A DNA stretch of 43,524 nucleotides from Anaerolineales bacterium (GTDB taxonomy: Bacteria > Chloroflexota > Anaerolineae > Anaerolineales > UBA6663): the NCBI GenBank assembly GCA_020845955.1, contig JADLEU010000309.1, positions 1 to 43,524 on the forward strand, given 5' to 3'. Below are positions 16,744-32,623 of the stretch, in pieces. The notes below the pieces were generated by a model. The model was not told the origin of the DNA, did no database searches, and saw only the letters and a list, made by a program, of their open reading frames with translations. Both the position numbers and the translations under genes were made by a program. Every line of letters starts with the position of its first letter. The first letter of the stretch is position 1.

Positions 16744-16813
16744 CCGTTCGGCGGGCGTACACTCATCATAACGCAAGAAGTGCATACTCGCTCTCCGCCT
16801 GAGAACATTTCTG

Positions 16814-16882
16814 GAAGGCGGCTGGTCCTTTCGCAAAGCGCGAAGCGCGAAGCGCGAAGGGGCTGGCCGCCTTCTTTGGTTT
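16814..16882 (+). terminator. Terminator before the large terminase, with heptamer repeat in the loop
   Basis: GAAGGCGGC (16814-16822) pairs with GCCGCCTTC (16866-16874); an inner CCTTTCGC pairs with GCGAAGGG. A T-rich TTTGGTTTT follows. The loop holds three or more copies of a 7-bp GCGAAGC-type repeat. Confidence 0.7.
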
Positions 16883-16902
16883 TAGGACAGACAGACATCG
16901 CC

Positions 16903-18444
16903 ATGCCCGCAGCCGCCCGTATGCCGCAGCAAGCGCCCGTGCTGGACGGGTTCCTGCCCCGGCTCCCCACCGTGGAGCAGGAGTATGCGCGGCTCCAACC
17001 CATGTTCAATGCGGTCGGCTATACCCCGTCCCCCGAACAGCGGCGGGTGCATGAGGCCATCCTTGCGCCGGGGCGCACGCCGGACGGCGGCAATGTCCCC
17101 CGTCTTGTCATCCTGGGCGGGGGCATTCAGGCCGGCAAGTCGTATCTTGCGGGCTATCACGCCCTTGCCCGTTTCCCGATGGATGGGACCATCTGGCTGG
17201 TCGGCTTCGAGTATGAGGACACGATTCACGAGTTCTCCTACCTGCGGGAGGCTGCTGTCCGGCTGAACGCCGCCACGCGCTACAGCACCAGCCAGCAGGG
17301 GCCGTGGGACCTGCGCTACGTCAACGGCGCGACCGTCCGTACTATCGCCTCCAAGGACATCACCAAGCTGGCGGGGGAAGCCCCCGACGGCATTATCATG
17401 TGCGAGGCAGGCCGCCAGACCTATGAAGCGTTCGAGACGTGCCTTGACCGCGTGACGCCGAAACAGGGCTGGCTGCTGGTGTCCGGCACCTTCGAGCAGG
17501 GCAGCAACTGGTACCGCAACCTTTGGCGGGAATGTCGCAGCCCCGGCAATATCCGTGGCGGCGTGGCGCTCTCGCTTCCCAGCTACAGCAACCGCCGGTT
17601 CTACCCTGACGGCGTACACGATCAGACGTTCTGGGAGCGCGAACGGCAGATGCTGGCGACGCGCCCGGTGGACGGGAAGGAACGCTTTGCGGAACGCTTC
17701 CTGGGCGAACCGCGCACGCCCTCCGACCTGGTGTTCAAGGACTTCTCCCGTCTCCTCCATGTGCAGGAATGGGCCGATTTTGACCCCGCCGAAGACGTGG
17801 CCCTGTGGATCGATCCCGGCTATGACCCCTCCGCGTTCGCCGTCCTCTTCGTACAAGTACGCGGCGATACCATCTGTGTGTTTGACGAGATTTACGTCAA
17901 CCGGATGCTCAACCACGAGATCATGACGATGGTGAAGAACCATCGGGCCTTCCCTAATGTGAAGCGCGTGGTGATGGACAAGGCCGCCAAGCAGCATGGC
18001 AACGCGCAGCAGTCAGCCTTTGAGACCTGGAGCGACGAACTCTCCGGGCGCAATGGCGGCATTTCCTTCGCGACCAGCCAGACCGGGCTTTCTGTCGCGG
18101 ACGGCATCGCCCGCACCCATGACAAGCTGGCGGTCAACCCGCTCACGAACGTCCCGTACATGGTCTTTTCCCCGAAGTGCCGCATGTTGGCGTGGGAGAT
18201 GGAAGAGGGCTACAAGTTCAGGACGCGGGCGGACGGCCTGGTGCATTCGGACAGCCCGATTGACGAAAACAACCATGCGGTGAAGGCGCTGGCCTACGGC
18301 ATCGTGGACCGCTATGGCCTGTCCAACGTGCCGGGCAAGCCGTTGCCCAGAAACACCGTCGAGACGATGCCCTGGGACGCCGCCTTCCAGCGGCGGCGCA
18401 GCGGCTATGCTTCTGCCGCCACGACCGCGACCGGGAGGCGCTAA
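16903..18444 (+). CDS. terL: Terminase large subunit
   Basis: 513 aa; the ATPase and nuclease that drives DNA into the prohead. Walker A GGGIQAGKS at 72-80. Walker B-like GIIMCEAG at 163-170 with Glu168. Coupling motif SGTF at about 194-197. The C-terminal RNase H-like nuclease starts at WIDPGYDPS (302-310, Asp304) and continues with FDEIYV near 327-332 and VVMDKAAKQHG. ATG at 16903 is used; upstream codons overlap the terminator and look non-coding. The SD is weak. Portal follows after 6 bp. Confidence 0.93.
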   Translation: MPAAARMPQQAPVLDGFLPRLPTVEQEYARLQPMFNAVGYTPSPEQRRVHEAILAPGRTPDGGNVPRLVILGGGIQAGKSYLAGYHALARFPMDGTIWLVGFEYEDTIHEFSYLREAAVRLNAATRYSTSQQGPWDLRYVNGATVRTIASKDITKLAGEAPDGIIMCEAGRQTYEAFETCLDRVTPKQGWLLVSGTFEQGSNWYRNLWRECRSPGNIRGGVALSLPSYSNRRFYPDGVHDQTFWERERQMLATRPVDGKERFAERFLGEPRTPSDLVFKDFSRLLHVQEWADFDPAEDVALWIDPGYDPSAFAVLFVQVRGDTICVFDEIYVNRMLNHEIMTMVKNHRAFPNVKRVVMDKAAKQHGNAQQSAFETWSDELSGRNGGISFATSQTGLSVADGIARTHDKLAVNPLTNVPYMVFSPKCRMLAWEMEEGYKFRTRADGLVHSDSPIDENNHAVKALAYGIVDRYGLSNVPGKPLPRNTVETMPWDAAFQRRRSGYASAATTATGRR

Positions 18445-23422: not shown

Positions 23423-26400
23423 ATGGCAACGCTGCTTGACAACGATGACCTGATACTGGTTGCCCCCGAACTGGACGGGGATGAAGAGGTAGACCCGTCC
23501 ATTCGCCGCGCCGCGGCGTCCGCGCCCGCGCCTGCACCTGCGCCCGCACCGTCCTCGTTCGTGCCGGATGTGCCGCAAAGCCCGCTGGCGGCGGTGCAAA
23601 ACATCGTGCAGGCGTTCGTGCCGAAACCTGCCACTTCTGCCGAGCCGGTACTGGTCGCTCCTGAACTGGGGCCTCCGTCCGCACCTACGCCCGCGCCGAT
23701 GCCTGCGTCTGTACCCGCTGCGGCCCCGTCATCGGTAGCGCCGGGGCCGGTTGACCGCAGTTCGCGGGAAGCGTTCATCCGTTCCATACGGCCCTATGCC
23801 GAAGAAGCCCAGCGGCGCACCGGCATTCCCGCCGACATCATGATCGCCATCAACCTGAACGAACAGGGCTGGCAGCACGAAGCCCCGGGCGGAAACCTGT
23901 TCGGCATTAAGGGATCGAACCCTCGCACCGGCGCGAACACCGGCCCCGTGGCGACGTGGGAGGACTATGGGCAGGGGCGGGTGAACATTCAGGACACCTT
24001 CCGCGCCTATGACAGCCCGGCGGAGTCCTATGAGGACTTCGGCAACTTCCTGTGGGACAACGCCCGCTATGCCAACGCCCTCAAGGTGCTGAAGGAGACC
24101 GGCGACGGCGCGGCCTTCCTGCGGGAAGTCCATCGCGCGGGGTACGCCACTGACCCGCTGTGGAGCGACAAGGTGCTCCGCATCGCCAACGATGTGCGGA
24201 ACGTGGTCAACGGTCCCAATGCGCCGCCGCCCACGCCGTACCCGCAGCGCGCGCCGATGACCACGCTGGCGGAAGAGATGGCGGCGGGGCAAGCCGAGGG
24301 GCTGGTGCCGACGCCGGAGACCGCCCCCGTGCAACTCCCTGACCGGCTGCGGGGCGCGCTGGAACGTACCGGGCAACAGTACGGCAAGGTGTTTGAGGCG
24401 CTAACCTCGCCGTTCTCGCCGGAGAACCCGGACAACCAGGCGAACCGGCTGGCGCTGGGCGCGATGCTTGGCGGGCTGCTGTTCCCTGCTCTGTGGCCCG
24501 CCGCGGGCGCTGGCGCTGCCGTAATGGGTGGCGCTTTCGGCGGGAGCCTTTTGGGGAGTAACGAACGGGGGGCGTTCATTCCGCCTGATGTGAGTATGCA
24601 TCCGGGCGGGATGGAATCGTTCTTCAACGCTATCCCTATGACCCAGCCGGGGCAGGTGGCGGTGCGCGGGATTGGCCCCAAGCTGGCGCTGGCGGCGGAT
24701 GCGGTCAGCAATGTGCTGGGCGGGCCGTCCGTCACGGCATTCGATGACCTGGTGCGTCCCTACCTTCAGGGCGCACGGCTGGCGGCGGAGGGCGCGGAGC
24801 CGGCGATGAAGGCCGCGACGCGCTTTGGCGAGCAACTGGCAGGCATTGATCCAGCCAACCCTACCGGTCCGCGCCGCAGCGTGACGCTGGGGATGACCGC
24901 GGGCGCGCCACCGCCCGCGAGTGTTCCCGACAGAGGGATGCCGCCCGGCGGGAACAAGTTGCCGCCCGTCGGGGACTTCAAGCCGGGCGATCAAGTGCGC
25001 TCGCCGCAGATTGACGCTGGCCGTCCCCTCACCGTCGTGGATGCCAGCGACCGCGCTGCGCTCACCGTGCGGACGGAAGGCGGTCGCGAATTGAAGATCG
25101 GGCGGCGCGCCGTGGAGCCGGTCGCGCCCGAAACGTCGCCGGATGATACCGCGCGTGTCGTACCTGAGGTCACGAACAAACAGGAACAGATTCCGGGGGG
25201 TGATGTCACGGCGGATGTCCCGCCTGTGGATACCCCGCCGCGGACGAGCCGGTGGGTAACGCCGCCGCGCCCGCCCGCTGGACCGCCATCACTGCCGCTA
25301 CGGGGAACGGAACCCCCGCCGCCGGCCGGGCCGCCCGCGGGGGCAGTGAGTGGTGTTGCGCCAGAGAACCCTGAACTGGAACGAGGCTTCAGCGAGACGC
25401 TGCGGGAATCGGAGCGCAGCAGCCCCGCGCTACGCCAGAAACTCACCGATACCCCCCTCACCTACGAGGGACCGCGCTCTACTCAGGGTCTTAGTGACGC
25501 GGCTAAGGCCCGCATGGATGCCGACCCCATTGGTTCAGAAACCCGTCTGCTGTCCAAGGGCAGCAACTATAACGATGCGGATGTGGCGGAAGCCCAGCAC
25601 GTCATCCGGCGGCTGACGGCAGAAGGCGCTGACGAAAAGGAGTTCGCCCGCGGCATTGATCTGGCGGAGAAGGTTGCCGCCGACCTGACCGAGCATGGCC
25701 GCACCATTCAGGCCGCATCCATCTGGAACCAGTTGGACGAGGCAGGCGCGTTGGTACGGTTGACCCGGCAGGCCAAGCGCAGCCGTGAAGCTGTGGGCGA
25801 CAAGCGTGCGGGCAAGCAGATTGGTGATGTAACCGAGCGGGTGGTGACGCGGAAGGCGCGCGAGGAAGTCGGCAGGATCACCAAGAACGTCAAGGAATGG
25901 ACTGAGGCTGCCGGCACCGCGACCAAGCGCGCTACCGGCAAGGCCTCACGGCAGGTGGACGACCTGATCAAGCGCACGCGGCAGGGGCTTGCCTATGTGG
26001 GCGACCGCGGGCGGCTGCCGCGGCAGATTGCCCCCGAACAGAGCCAGGAACGGCGCATCCTGAACGAACTCCGGCGGGTGTACGACCGGCTGGGCGAGGT
26101 CATCCCTGAAGACCTTGCCACGCGGCTGAACGACGTGCTGGATACCATCAAGGGCATGGATGTGGACGACCCGGCGCGGCTGAAGGAAGCCCAGCGGCTG
26201 ATCCGTGAGGACATTGGGCAAGGCATTCTGGGGCCACTGAAGGAGATGGAAGCCACCGCCAAGGAGTCTGCGGCCCTGATCAAGAAGGCCGAACAGTCCG
26301 TCACCGAACTGGCTGACCTTGGCCGCAACCCCAAACTGTTGGGGCTGACCGATGAGATGGTGCAGAAGTTGAACCAGATGCGGCGCAATGCCAACCGTGC

Positions 26401-29230
26401 CGGCTACATCCTGTCGCCGGAACGCCGCAAGGAACTGGCTGGCTGGCTGGACGCCATCAAGGGCTACCGCGAAGGCTCGACCGAGAAGGTGGAGGCCATC
26501 CGTGAGTACATCACCCGACTGACGACCGGCGACATCGCCCAAGAGATAGCTGAGCGCACACAGCAGTTCGCGGCGGCGCGACGGGACATCGGACGGGTGG
26601 AGCGAATGACCGCCTTCCTTGGCGATCTGGGCCGCAGCCCAGGCAACCTTGGCTTGCAGGACGAAGACGCCGCCGCCTTCGCCAAAGTGCGACGGCTGGC
26701 GAATAACCTTGGATATATCATGCCCGAAGTCGAGCGCACGGGCATCCTCGATCTGGCGGACGAACTGCGTGCGCTCCCCGAAGGGCCGGAGAAGGCGGCG
26801 AAGGCGCAGAGTCTGGTACAGGCCGTCAAACAGGAACTCTTGCCCGAACTGGAAGCGCGCTGGCTGGTGATGCAGGACGAAGCGGCGCAGGCACGGTGGG
26901 AAGAGGCCAATCTGCGCTATCTGATTGACGAGGCCGAGCGCATCACCCGGCCGCGGGTGCTGTCGGACGTGCAGGAAACCATGCAGCGCATTCGCACCGA
27001 TCTGCGAGACGGCAAGATGGATGTTCCGGTGGAACTGGCCGAGTCCATCATGGATCGGTTCCGTCTCGCTCGTTCCTTGCCGGAAGACTCCCCTCAGCGT
27101 TACCGCCTGCTGCAAGGCGCGGCGCAGGACATCAGCGACCTCATGCCGCCATCGGCATGGGACAGAGTGGCGAAAGTCTACAACCTGCCGCGGCAACTGA
27201 TGGCGGGCCTGTATGACTTTTCGGCACTGATGCGGCAGGGGCGGTACGGCCTCATGTCGCACCCGACCGCGTGGCTGCGCTCCGTCAAGCCGATGCTTCA
27301 GGCGTTCGCTGCCCCGGAGACGGCAGCGCGCATTGACGCCGAACTGCATACCCGCCCGACCGCGAAGTTCTGGGAGAACGCCGGGGCGTACCTTGCGCCG
27401 CGGGCCGGAGAAGGCACGCTGACCACGCGGGAAGAACACTTCCTGGGGCGGGCGTTGGGCGCTGCCGACCGCAATGGCCTCATGCGCTTTATCGGATCGG
27501 CGGCGTGGGAAGACGCCTATGTCACGTTCCTGAACAAGTTGCGGGCCAATATCCTCGACAGCATCTATTACAAGTATGAAAAGCGGGGCCAGCCGCTGGC
27601 ACCGGAAGAGGCGCAGCAGTACGCGCAGTGGGTGAACTGGATGACCGGCCGCGGCTCGCTCCCGCCGCAACTCGACCGTGCCGCGGGTATCCTCGCGCAC
27701 ACGTTCTTCTCGCCCCGGAACATGGCCTCCCGCGTGGAGCGTCCTGTTGCTGCCGGGCGGGCCGCCTACTCCGTGGTGCTGGGGCCGAACGCGCCGGGGG
27801 CATACGCCAGCCGCCGGATCGCTGCGGAGATCGGCAAGGACTTCGCCGCCTATTACAGCATCGGGGCCATCCTGATGGGGCTGGCGACGGCGGCGGGCTA
27901 TCAAGTGGGGACGGACCCGCTCAAGAGCGACTTTGGCAACGTCACCGATGACGACGGCGTGCGCCACAACATCTGGAGCGACGACGCAACGCTGGCGCGG
28001 ACCCTCGCGCGCTTCCTCACCGAGCAGGAACGCACCGCCTCTGGGAACCCGTACCCGATTGATCGCGGCGAGGTCGTCTTGCGCTATATGCTGGGACAAC
28101 TTTCGCCACAGACCGGCATGGCGCTGAACCAGATTCGGGGCAAGGATGCCCTTGGCCGCAGCATCGAAGGGCCGGCCCGCGAGAACACGGCGTTTGGCGA
28201 TCTGGATGCCATGCTGCGGGGGACGGGGCTGGCCGAAGGGTCCCCCCTCCGGGACATGGCGGGGCCAGTGGGTGGACGGTTTTCCGACATATTGGAACAT
28301 ATGGTGCCGGGCGTGCTGGCGTCCTTCGCCAATGCCTACGGCAATGATCGCGGGCTGGGCGGCGCAGCGCGGGCGGCAACCGGGACGTTCTTGGGTGTCG
28401 GTGGTTCGTCCGAGGCGAGCACCGACGAACTGCGGGGCCGGCTCGCGCGCGCGCGGTTCGGCGTGGACTACGACGCGGCCGACGAAGCAGGCGTGCCGCT
28501 GCTGGACAGCACGCAGAAACTTCAGATTAACCAGTCGCCCGAAGTGCGGGAAGTAACCAGTGGTGGCCGGAGCTTGGACCAGCGGGAGGCCATCGGCGCA
28601 GCGGCACGTGCGGGACAGGCGCGGCTAATCAAGCAGATGGATTTGGACAAGCGGCTACTCTCTGGCGCGATTGACTACAAGCAATGGCGATTGGAGCGGA
28701 AGACCATCAACAACGAGTACGCTGGGGCCATTGAGAACAGCCGCGTGAAGGAACTGCCGCCGCGGGAGGTAGACCCGAACAACCGGGCGCAGGTGCTGGC
28801 CGCGCAGTATGCCGCCATCCCCATGAACACCGACCCGGTGACGGGGGAAGAGGACTTCAAGACCTTCTTCAACGAGCGCGACCGCTTCATGCAAAGCCTG
28901 TCGCCGGAAGACCGCAACATCATGGAGCGGTATCTGGATGCCAACGACACCATGATCGAGCGGGTCTACCGGCGGGACATGGAGAAAATCCGCACGTATT
29001 GGGACTACCTTGACGGACTGGAAGCCTCGCCGCAGGTTGCCCCGATCATCCAGCGGCGGGAGGACGCCAAACGTGCCGGTCAGGAACTTCAGGCGCGGTT
29101 ATATGACCGGATGGTCAACCGGCTGATGGACCCGCGCAAACTGATGTGGCGACGGCAACACCCCGACGTGGACAAGCTGATGAAGAAATGGGGCTACGTC
29201 ACGGTGCTGGCGACGCAGCGGGCATCGTAA
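23423..29230 (+). CDS. Giant virion-associated (ejection/polyvalent-like) protein with GH73-like glucosaminidase domain
   Basis: 1935 aa. Residues 1-110 are disordered, Ala/Pro-rich, with LVAPEL at 12-17 and 77-82 and VDPSIRRA at 23-30. Residues about 112-258 are a FlgJ/GH73-type glucosaminidase: putative catalytic Glu147 in NLNEQGW, then GNLFGIKGS and YATDPLWSDKV. A hydrophobic, Gly/Ala-rich segment lies at 342-379. A Pro-rich stretch (500-660) leads to a long helical region with four repeats of about 100 residues (870-1250). Around 1430-1560 FFSPRNMASRVERP and DPLKSDFGN resemble the large polyvalent-protein-associated domains of phages. The likely role is ejection with the DNA and local peptidoglycan cleavage (inference). 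It could also be called an internal virion protein. Confidence 0.75.
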   Translation: MATLLDNDDLILVAPELDGDEEVDPSIRRAAASAPAPAPAPAPSSFVPDVPQSPLAAVQNIVQAFVPKPATSAEPVLVAPELGPPSAPTPAPMPASVPAAAPSSVAPGPVDRSSREAFIRSIRPYAEEAQRRTGIPADIMIAINLNEQGWQHEAPGGNLFGIKGSNPRTGANTGPVATWEDYGQGRVNIQDTFRAYDSPAESYEDFGNFLWDNARYANALKVLKETGDGAAFLREVHRAGYATDPLWSDKVLRIANDVRNVVNGPNAPPPTPYPQRAPMTTLAEEMAAGQAEGLVPTPETAPVQLPDRLRGALERTGQQYGKVFEALTSPFSPENPDNQANRLALGAMLGGLLFPALWPAAGAGAAVMGGAFGGSLLGSNERGAFIPPDVSMHPGGMESFFNAIPMTQPGQVAVRGIGPKLALAADAVSNVLGGPSVTAFDDLVRPYLQGARLAAEGAEPAMKAATRFGEQLAGIDPANPTGPRRSVTLGMTAGAPPPASVPDRGMPPGGNKLPPVGDFKPGDQVRSPQIDAGRPLTVVDASDRAALTVRTEGGRELKIGRRAVEPVAPETSPDDTARVVPEVTNKQEQIPGGDVTADVPPVDTPPRTSRWVTPPRPPAGPPSLPLRGTEPPPPAGPPAGAVSGVAPENPELERGFSETLRESERSSPALRQKLTDTPLTYEGPRSTQGLSDAAKARMDADPIGSETRLLSKGSNYNDADVAEAQHVIRRLTAEGADEKEFARGIDLAEKVAADLTEHGRTIQAASIWNQLDEAGALVRLTRQAKRSREAVGDKRAGKQIGDVTERVVTRKAREEVGRITKNVKEWTEAAGTATKRATGKASRQVDDLIKRTRQGLAYVGDRGRLPRQIAPEQSQERRILNELRRVYDRLGEVIPEDLATRLNDVLDTIKGMDVDDPARLKEAQRLIREDIGQGILGPLKEMEATAKESAALIKKAEQSVTELADLGRNPKLLGLTDEMVQKLNQMRRNANRAGYILSPERRKELAGWLDAIKGYREGSTEKVEAIREYITRLTTGDIAQEIAERTQQFAAARRDIGRVERMTAFLGDLGRSPGNLGLQDEDAAAFAKVRRLANNLGYIMPEVERTGILDLADELRALPEGPEKAAKAQSLVQAVKQELLPELEARWLVMQDEAAQARWEEANLRYLIDEAERITRPRVLSDVQETMQRIRTDLRDGKMDVPVELAESIMDRFRLARSLPEDSPQRYRLLQGAAQDISDLMPPSAWDRVAKVYNLPRQLMAGLYDFSALMRQGRYGLMSHPTAWLRSVKPMLQAFAAPETAARIDAELHTRPTAKFWENAGAYLAPRAGEGTLTTREEHFLGRALGAADRNGLMRFIGSAAWEDAYVTFLNKLRANILDSIYYKYEKRGQPLAPEEAQQYAQWVNWMTGRGSLPPQLDRAAGILAHTFFSPRNMASRVERPVAAGRAAYSVVLGPNAPGAYASRRIAAEIGKDFAAYYSIGAILMGLATAAGYQVGTDPLKSDFGNVTDDDGVRHNIWSDDATLARTLARFLTEQERTASGNPYPIDRGEVVLRYMLGQLSPQTGMALNQIRGKDALGRSIEGPARENTAFGDLDAMLRGTGLAEGSPLRDMAGPVGGRFSDILEHMVPGVLASFANAYGNDRGLGGAARAATGTFLGVGGSSEASTDELRGRLARARFGVDYDAADEAGVPLLDSTQKLQINQSPEVREVTSGGRSLDQREAIGAAARAGQARLIKQMDLDKRLLSGAIDYKQWRLERKTINNEYAGAIENSRVKELPPREVDPNNRAQVLAAQYAAIPMNTDPVTGEEDFKTFFNERDRFMQSLSPEDRNIMERYLDANDTMIERVYRRDMEKIRTYWDYLDGLEASPQVAPIIQRREDAKRAGQELQARLYDRMVNRLMDPRKLMWRRQHPDVDKLMKKWGYVTVLATQRAS

Positions 29231-30403: not shown

Positions 30404-30645
30404 TGGGGGGTATGATGCAGGCGGTACTTGAGGCAGTCGTGGTCATTGCCGTGAACGGCGACGTGTTGTGCGAAGCGTGCAACAAGCCGATTGCTGCGCT
30501 GTTCGGAGGGCATCTCGTTATTGACCGCGGCGAGACCTATGCGGAGTTCGCTGGCGGCGACGTGATGATCCAGTGCCATCGCCGCGTGCTGGACGGTGGC
30601 CGCTATCGCACCTGCGGTCATCGTAACCGTCTGCGCTTGGGGTAG
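30403..30645 (+). CDS. Zinc-ribbon-like small protein
   Basis: 80 aa: VNGDVLCEACNKPIAALFGG with one CxxC and a second Cys/His cluster MIQCHRRVLDGGRYRTCGHR. Start overlaps the upstream stop (TAATG); in-frame ATGs at 30412 and 30415 are alternatives. Last gene before the capsid promoter. Confidence 0.68.
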   Translation: MGGMMQAVLEAVVVIAVNGDVLCEACNKPIAALFGGHLVIDRGETYAEFAGGDVMIQCHRRVLDGGRYRTCGHRNRLRLG

Positions 30646-30650
30646 TTGTG

Positions 30651-30680
30651 TTGACAGCACCTTCCGTTTGTGCGTAACAT
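30651..30680 (+). promoter_or_regulatory. Promoter of the scaffold-capsid unit
   Basis: TTGACA (30651-30656), 18-bp spacer, TAACAT (30675-30680). RNA would start near 30687, about 78 nt before the scaffold ATG. Confidence 0.7.
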
Positions 30681-30710
30681 AAGAAGTAATCTCATAGCAG
30701 CGGCTTCCAC

Positions 30711-30764
30711 AGCCCCGATGCCATGCACGTCCTCCACGGACTGCGGTGCAACGGGGCTTTCTTT
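30711..30764 (+). promoter_or_regulatory. Structured leader, terminator-like
   Basis: AGCCCCG (30711-30717) pairs with CGGGGCT (30752-30758); inside it TGCAC/GTGCA and GTCC/GGAC extend the stem. TTCTTT follows, directly before the ATG at 30765, and the GGGG that would serve as SD is in the stem. Could act as attenuator or translation control. Confidence 0.55.
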
Positions 30765-31691
30765 ATGGTCTCCACCTTCCCCGATCAGCAATTTCAGCAA
30801 CCGCAGACAGATGTGCCTTCCAGCGCCACCACCGGCGCCGGTGGTGGCGCTGGAAGGCCCGCGGGCATGGACAACTACACCGAACCCGACCCTTATGCCG
30901 CAGAGAACCTGCTGGGGGGGGCGTCTGCTGCTGACGCAGCGCCCGCCGCGACGGAAGGCGAGCCGGATGCTGCGCCCGCGCCCGCGCCCGCGGCCACGCC
31001 GTCGCCGTCGCAGTGGGACACGCCCGACAACCCCTACTTCAAGCAATGGCAGGACGCACAGCCGAAGCTCCAGCAGATTGATGCGCTGCAACAGCGCGTT
31101 GATACCTGGCAGCAGCAGATTGATGCGGCGCAGCAGGGCCAGCAACGGCAGCAGTTCCAGCAGGCCCAGCAGGAACTGCTCAACGATCTCGCAGCATGGG
31201 CGACCGCCTACCGCGAGTTGCACAGCGCCGACATCCCCGCTGACAAGTTCCAGCGGTACCAGCAGGCGCTCCAGTACGGCCTGGCCTTTCAGCAACCGGA
31301 CGTGCAGCAGCGGTTTAACGCCGTGTATGAGGCCGCGAACACCTTCGCGGCCCGCGACAAGGCGTGGGAACTCGTGGGGAAGCACTTTGGCGACACCGCC
31401 AGTTATGGCACTATCCGCCAAGCCTTCGAGCAGGTCGTGAAGTCGGCCAGCCCAGAAATCATGGAGGAGCGGACACAACTCCTGGCAGACCGCTGGCGGC
31501 AGAGCAATGCCCAGCGCCGGGTGCAGAGCGGGGCTGAACGGCTGGAAGGCGGCGCACCGGCGGCGGCGGGCGCACCCAATAGCCTGTCGTATTACGAGAA
31601 CAAAATCTTCCGTGCAGGCGGCGGCACCGACGCGCTGACGGACCAGGAATGGGCGCGGTATCTGGAACTGCGCCAGCGATCAGCACTGTAG
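30765..31691 (+). CDS. Putative scaffolding protein
   Basis: 308 aa, directly upstream of the capsid gene, the usual scaffold place. Residues 1-90 are disordered (Gln, Pro, Ala-rich). A Gln-rich coiled-coil region (LQQIDALQQRVDTWQQQIDA, and QQEL further on) spans about 100-160. Helical C-terminus. Scaffolds guide coat assembly and leave the prohead. ATG at 30765 is assumed. A second in-frame ATG at 30867 (MDNYTEPD) has its own SD, GGAAGG, inside a perfect palindrome, so a shorter form is possible. Confidence 0.72.
   Translation: MVSTFPDQQFQQPQTDVPSSATTGAGGGAGRPAGMDNYTEPDPYAAENLLGGASAADAAPAATEGEPDAAPAPAPAATPSPSQWDTPDNPYFKQWQDAQPKLQQIDALQQRVDTWQQQIDAAQQGQQRQQFQQAQQELLNDLAAWATAYRELHSADIPADKFQRYQQALQYGLAFQQPDVQQRFNAVYEAANTFAARDKAWELVGKHFGDTASYGTIRQAFEQVVKSASPEIMEERTQLLADRWRQSNAQRRVQSGAERLEGGAPAAAGAPNSLSYYENKIFRAGGGTDALTDQEWARYLELRQRSAL
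30815..30858. repeat. Perfect 44-bp palindrome inside the scaffold gene
   Basis: Every base of 30815-30836 pairs with 30837-30858 (outer GCCTTCCAGCG, centre GGCGCC). It codes for SSATTGAGGGAGR. As RNA it would be a hairpin of about 20 bp that contains the GGAAGG SD-like sequence (30852-30857) of the ATG at 30867. Confidence 0.95.
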
Positions 31692-31720: not shown

Positions 31721-32623
31721 ATGGCAATTGTGACCACGAGTTCACTGGCGGACACGCTGCCCAAGTTCATTGCAGAGGCGGCGCTGACGCTCAAGCAGGA
31801 AGGTCTCATGATGGGCCGCGTCGGGAAGGTGCGGCTCGCCAAGGGGCAGGGCCTCACCTATCACCGCCCGACCTGGAGCGCGGTGAGTGTGCTGGACTTG
31901 ACCGAGGGCGTTGACCTGGCGCAGGCCCAGAGCGTGACCGACAGCGACTTCACCATCACCGTGGCGGAGATCGGCGGGCAGATTTTTTTCAGCGATCTGA
32001 CCGAGATGGCGCTGCGCGAGGACGTGATGCGCTACTTCGGGCGGGCGCTGGCGAACGCCTACAAGAACGCCATTGACACCGACCTGACCGAAGACATGGA
32101 CAGCGCCACCGTCAGTCTTGGCGGCGCTGGCACCACCACCGTCATCGGCCACCTTCAGGCCGCGGCGGTGCGGCTGGCTGCCGCTTCCCGCCCGGTCGAG
32201 GGCAAGCTGTCGTGCGTCATTCACCCCTTCCAGTATCACCCCATTGTGCAGGACTTGGCTTCCCTGACCAGCGGCCAGTGGTCGCCCAGCAGCGGGACCC
32301 CGGCCATTGACCGCACGATGGGCAGCAGCGTCGCGGGCATGTCCGAACAGTTGATCCGCAACTATTGGGTAGGGCGGCTGGCTGGAGTGGACGTGTTTAC
32401 CGACCCGAACATCGCCATTGACGGCAGCGACGACGCCAAGGGCGGGATGTTCTCCAACGAAGCGATCCTGTCCATCACCTATCAGGAGCCGTCCGTTCGC
32501 ACCCAGCGCGACGAGTCCCTGCGCGGGCTGGAACTGAACTACGTCGGCATGCACGGTAGCGGCATGTACGACGGAGCGTGGGCCTTCGAGATTTACACTG
32601 ACTGTAGCACCCCCTCGTCGTAA
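31721..32623 (+). CDS. Major capsid protein
   Basis: 300 aa. Position after the scaffold, SD AAAGGGG and high-quality coding sequence support the call. The N-terminal part (TTSSLADTLPKFIAEAALTL, then a strand pair) and ITVAEIGGQIFFSDLTEMAL with GRALANAYKNAIDTDLTE are typical of HK97-fold coat proteins of podoviral and related phages. The C-terminus (GLELNYVGMHGSGMYD) is beta-rich. Should be the main virion protein. Confidence 0.85.
   Translation: MAIVTTSSLADTLPKFIAEAALTLKQEGLMMGRVGKVRLAKGQGLTYHRPTWSAVSVLDLTEGVDLAQAQSVTDSDFTITVAEIGGQIFFSDLTEMALREDVMRYFGRALANAYKNAIDTDLTEDMDSATVSLGGAGTTTVIGHLQAAAVRLAAASRPVEGKLSCVIHPFQYHPIVQDLASLTSGQWSPSSGTPAIDRTMGSSVAGMSEQLIRNYWVGRLAGVDVFTDPNIAIDGSDDAKGGMFSNEAILSITYQEPSVRTQRDESLRGLELNYVGMHGSGMYDGAWAFEIYTDCSTPSS

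Follow-up and report, generated by a model that had tools for sequence, protein, structure and literature searches.

Hairpins in phage leaders that hide a Shine-Dalgarno (SD) sequence are known from lambda N, with RNase III, and from the dual starts of holin genes, and an internal in-frame start for a scaffold is known from lambda C/Nu3. Control of phage leaders by RNase III is established for T7 mRNAs and for lambda N. On the DNA level, template switching has been described as a route by which perfect hairpins are formed in one step (PMC8794818). In PMC4060949, which cites Ladoukakis and Eyre-Walker, the excess of palindromes in prokaryotes, coding sequence included, was attributed to template switching.

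Here, a perfect palindrome of 44 bp at the start of a presumed phage scaffold gene is described. The palindrome is real and unusual in its length, and it is of a kind already known. In the preferred reading, one arm was copied in inverted orientation within a Gly/Ala linker that the protein, read from 30765, can do without, and the hairpin is a by-product; this reading is held tentatively, at somewhat less than an even chance, and is ranked over a regulatory leader hairpin, an RNase III or stability element, a DNA-level site and an artefact.

The phage contig and its palindrome

The window analysed here is the whole of contig C309 (43,524 bases), one of the 431 contigs of a draft genome of 6.06 Mb, and carries the genes of a tailed phage. 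Between its tetranucleotide profile and those of other contigs of the genome bin, r is 0.26-0.57, the median among those contigs being 0.77. The window is thus foreign DNA in composition, from a phage that was binned with or infects that bacterium. The open reading frame at 30765/30867 is presumed to code for the scaffold because of its composition and its position 30 bp ahead of the Phage_capsid_4 gene; it has no family match. The following features are referred to below:

13546: terminase small subunit, weak match
16780-18444: terminase large subunit
23423-29230: protein of 1935 aa with a glucosaminidase domain
30651-30680, forward strand: sigma-70-like promoter, TTGACA-18-TAACAT, matching the consensus at 10/12 positions (consensus match only)
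30711-30764, forward strand: terminator-like hairpin AGCCCCG...CGGGGCT, at 30711-30759, followed by the T-rich tail TTCTTT, directly before ATG 30765 (from folding)
30765-31691, forward strand: presumed scaffold ORF from the upstream start (MVSTFPDQQFQQPQTD...), 308 aa (from the open frame and codon score)
30815-30858, no strand assigned: spacer-less perfect palindrome with 100% complementary arms, predicted by folding to give an RNA hairpin with a 20-bp stem and a GCGC loop
30852-30857, forward strand: SD-like GGAAGG within the 3' arm, 9 nt 5' of ATG 30867 (anti-SD duplex of -5.5 kcal/mol)
30867-31691, forward strand: presumed scaffold ORF from the internal start (MDNYTEPDPYAAENLL...; MDNYTEP), 274 aa, with an acidic N-terminus like that of the positional scaffolds of distant relatives
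31721-32623, forward strand: major capsid protein gene, Phage_capsid_4 / phrog_1357

The promoter-like site lies in the gap after the preceding ORF of 80 aa, which ends at 30645. Other close matches to the sigma-70 consensus were identified in the phage, for example, TTGACA-17-TATACT at 8293-8265 and TTGACA-17-TATTAT at 12872-12844.

The palindrome reads GCCTTCCAGCGCCACCACCGGC / GCCGGTGGTGGCGCTGGAAGGC and is the longest perfect inverted repeat of the window. Its two arms of 22 bp form 22 perfect pairs and meet without a spacer on a codon boundary, with the symmetry extending to the very centre. The identity of the arms ends exactly at 30815 and 30858, the reading frame stays open, and the frame from 30765 reads the palindrome as VPSSATTG/AGGGAGRP. 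Order-5 Markov simulation of the window, repeated 30 times, did not yield a single spacer-less palindrome with an arm of 11 bp, and by a hand estimate (pairing chance of about 0.27, 64% GC) about 1e-8 palindromes of this size are expected. When the encoded peptide was recoded synonymously in the phage's own codon usage, the longest arm obtained in 20,000 trials was 16 bp, which showed that the amino acid sequence does not explain the palindrome. The claim of a perfect 44-bp palindrome far beyond chance, made in the first-pass annotation, is thereby confirmed. Its second claim, that the palindrome lies in coding sequence, depends on which start codon is used: it holds if translation begins at 30765 or farther upstream, and it fails if ATG 30867 is the main start, in which case the palindrome is part of the 5' leader. 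The palindrome does not have the form of an intrinsic terminator, as no T-run follows 30858, the next bases being CCGCGGGC.

Two more imperfect inverted repeats, at 31150-31180 and 31318-31365, are present in the same presumed scaffold gene, which at less than 1 kb holds three of the 18 inverted repeats listed for the window. Near the contig end, at 129-166, a perfect stem of 17 bp with a loop of 4 nt (CTTATCCGCCCTATCAG/CTGATAGGGCGGATAAG) overlaps a reverse-strand ORF with a C-5 DNA methylase domain.

Start codons and codon usage of the two arms

ATG 30765 is in frame with ATG 30867. Pairing with the anti-SD is weak at both starts, with -5.0 kcal/mol for 30765 and -5.5 kcal/mol for 30867, the value for the capsid gene being -7.0 kcal/mol. 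The only SD of ATG 30765, GGGG, is predicted to be buried in the upstream hairpin, for which folding of 30700-30772 gave an MFE of -30.8 kcal/mol (z -3.1). For the palindrome, folding of 30810-30872 gave an MFE of -47.3 kcal/mol (shuffle z -5.98), and the SD at 30852-30858 is practically always paired in the predicted leader transcript (unpaired probability of about 0-0.02). GGAAGG was correctly placed by the earlier annotation 9 nt ahead of an in-frame ATG (30867-30869), and its pairing within the stem in the mRNA agrees with the predicted fold. Since both starts have weak SDs, each of them buried in its own hairpin, the anatomy alone cannot choose between them.

Codon usage favours translation starting at 30765. 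The 24 codons of 30765-30836, which run through the 5' arm, reach +6.9 bits under the phage codon model, a value attained by 0.2% of random open sequences, and the 25 codons ahead of 30765 in the same frame score -3.9; as a caution, the score of 30765-30812 is matched by 21% of the open stretches of 16 codons in the presumed gaps of the window. The high-scoring gaps perhaps contain small genes. Among windows of eight codons in genes, the 5' arm ranks at the 32nd percentile; the 3' arm, which contains the rare codons GGT, GGT, GCT, GGA and AGG, ranks at 0.04%. A normal 5' arm next to an atypical 3' arm is as expected if a coding 5' arm was copied in inverted orientation. The same contrast would arise if the 3' arm were non-coding, so that the contrast alone does not exclude a start at 30867.

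Proposed template switching and the rival readings

Most likely, template switching in DNA replication made the palindrome, or completed one from an imperfect repeat. The event would have taken place in an N-terminal linker of low complexity, rich in Ser/Thr/Gly/Ala, in the presumed scaffold, with translation starting at 30765. Of the two arms, the 5' one would represent the original coding sequence and the 3' one its reverse-complement copy, which would be tolerated since nearly any sequence can serve as the linker. The 20-bp hairpin in the mRNA would be read through by elongating ribosomes and would prevent starting at ATG 30867. This inverted copying is supported by arms that are perfect reverse complements beyond chance, one of which is typical of the gene and the other atypical. 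We infer a start at 30765, an origin by template switching and the absence of a dedicated regulatory role.

A mutational origin fits both the codon usage and an excess of similar palindromes within the bin. In 868 kb of other bin contigs, 18 perfect palindromes without a spacer have arms of 11 bp or more, compared to 0.67 expected from order-5 models, and five have arms of at least 15 bp, compared to 0 expected. Most bin palindromes overlap ORFs with coding-like scores; examples (G000) are L132:10698-10735, L023:3476-3507, L051:14924-14955 and L104:12334-12363. The control genomes G001 (same family, 261 kb) and G410 (more distant, 400 kb) contain one and two spacer-less palindromes, respectively, whose arms measure 11 bp or more. 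The excess favours a mutational origin of the phage palindrome, which may be the longest case of the process behind the bin palindromes; since the tetranucleotide profile of the window is unlike that of the bin, the excess may not apply to this phage. Further points that count against inverted copying are the position of ATG 30765 after the upstream hairpin that buries its SD, the short coding signal from 30765, and the acidic starts of the positional scaffolds of relatives, which fit 30867 somewhat better.

Next in rank is a 5'-leader hairpin controlling scaffold translation from ATG 30867, which is considered unlikely. Here, the stem would sequester the SD until ribosomes arriving from 30765 release it (coupling), which might result in a long and a short scaffold form. 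A translational switch is structurally possible on the basis of folding, which predicts that the unpaired probability of the SD rises from about 0 to 0.3-0.8 once the 5' arm is removed. A stem of -47 kcal/mol would be unable to open alone, so that a switch would depend on ribosomes from upstream or on RNase III. The promoter-like site and the structured leader upstream are in agreement with such a hairpin, as are the acidic N-terminus after 30867, which resembles that of relatives, and the 3' arm, which looks non-coding by codon usage. However, the SD is weak, the central bases are palindromic too although a regulatory RNA needs no symmetric loop, and the same arrangement is present in no homologous scaffold. 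A more specific proposal, a lock on the internal start gated by ribosomes or RNase III, in which the ratio of long to short scaffold would be set by upstream translation and would tie the scaffold form to expression of the capsid operon, is regarded as improbable.

Near relatives were sought via the DNA, the scaffold protein, the capsid, the terminase, an ORF of 717 aa and the 1935-aa protein. By these queries, only distant relatives were found; their capsids do not exceed 42% identity, and none of them has a scaffold that could be aligned with this one. The closest capsid relatives (40-42%) are loci in one family of the same phylum, and no gene resembling this scaffold was detectable in this set. 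An IMG/VR contig (34%), bacterial loci (26-30%) and, at 24-29%, Pelagibacter phages, DSL-LC06 and Microcystis phage Mae-JY09 are further relatives. In six distant relatives (L001, L011-L015), the product of the gene that precedes the capsid gene begins with an acid-rich segment, and the start of this preceding gene carries no long palindrome; as relatives without the palindrome are also without a recognisably homologous scaffold, their lack of it cannot test the switch, and there is nowhere to seek compensatory changes.

In loci with capsids of 40-42% identity (L152/L154-L158), a perfect stem of 15-16 bp, TGGATCAGGCGCCGC..GCGGCGCCTGATCCA, was identified just past the capsid stop (for example, L156:2403-2437), with a nearly constant stem and a varying loop. 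Each of 18 genomes from a single bacterial family (f80; G484, G496, G521, G529 and others) has one or two relatives of the terminase (33-38% identity), and these might represent a conserved prophage or an element like a gene transfer agent.

It is also improbable that the palindrome is a site of RNase III processing or an element protecting the mRNA at the 5' end of the scaffold-capsid message, where cutting would stabilise the message and uncover the SD. The 20 perfect pairs come near two helical turns, and by folding the SD would be largely accessible after removal of the 5' arm. However, the palindrome is not conserved and matched no known RNA family at the gathering score; in a permissive search, most matches were to models of microRNA precursors and scored far below threshold, as would be the case for any hairpin.

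Ranked below this is a DNA-level site, such as an operator for a dimeric protein, a recombination or telomere-resolution site, or a mobile palindromic repeat, for which the chances are judged to be slim. The symmetry includes the central bases, as would be required of a DNA site, but 44 perfect bp exceed what a protein dimer needs. A telomere site was rejected, as a protelomerase (PF16684) is absent from the genome bin. The palindrome is a single locus in the 6.06 Mb of the bin; a search of 60 related genomes with up to 3 mismatches did not find its core, and exact matches are absent for the core in genome_contigs and for the half-site in viral_contigs. A repeat family, a REP-like or gene-inserting element and an attachment site were rejected, since no further copy was found in the bin or the collections searched. 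Neither for a regulated switch nor for a protein site was anything positive found in this sequence analysis. An assembly or library artefact, conceivable for a contig of a 431-contig draft, is very improbable, since a fold-back chimera would mirror the flanks too, and the identity stops at both ends of the palindrome with the frame open.

Comparison to described systems

If the palindrome is regulatory, it represents a compact way to set scaffold dose or form from one message. If it is mutational, a perfect palindrome of 44 bp can arise and be tolerated in a phage structural gene, which is a warning against taking every perfect palindrome for a switch. The palindrome excess of the bin could serve the study of template switching in bacteria.

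With lambda N and RNase III, the dual starts of holins and lambda C/Nu3, the locus shares a possible anatomy, a hairpin over an SD and an in-frame ATG near scaffold and capsid genes. In contrast to these systems, the arrangement is not conserved here, an upstream start competes, and the anatomy is predicted from the sequence.

The perfect inverted repeats produced by template switching, including quasipalindrome correction (PMC8794818), have in common with this locus the perfect arms, the contrast between a normal and an atypical arm, and a transcribed hairpin. Here, however, the event is deduced from the present-day sequence. The coding palindromes of Nematomorpha mitochondria (PMC6649704) are likewise perfect inverted repeats within protein genes; there, many genes are affected and the two arms code for conserved parts of the proteins, whereas here one linker of one gene is concerned. 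For prokaryotes, PMC4060949 describes spacer-less or close inverted repeats above chance, also in coding regions, as is the case for this palindrome. Those surveys deal with arms of 6-9 bp and with patterns from 8-12 bp up, whereas the palindrome described here has 22 perfect pairs and is located in a phage.
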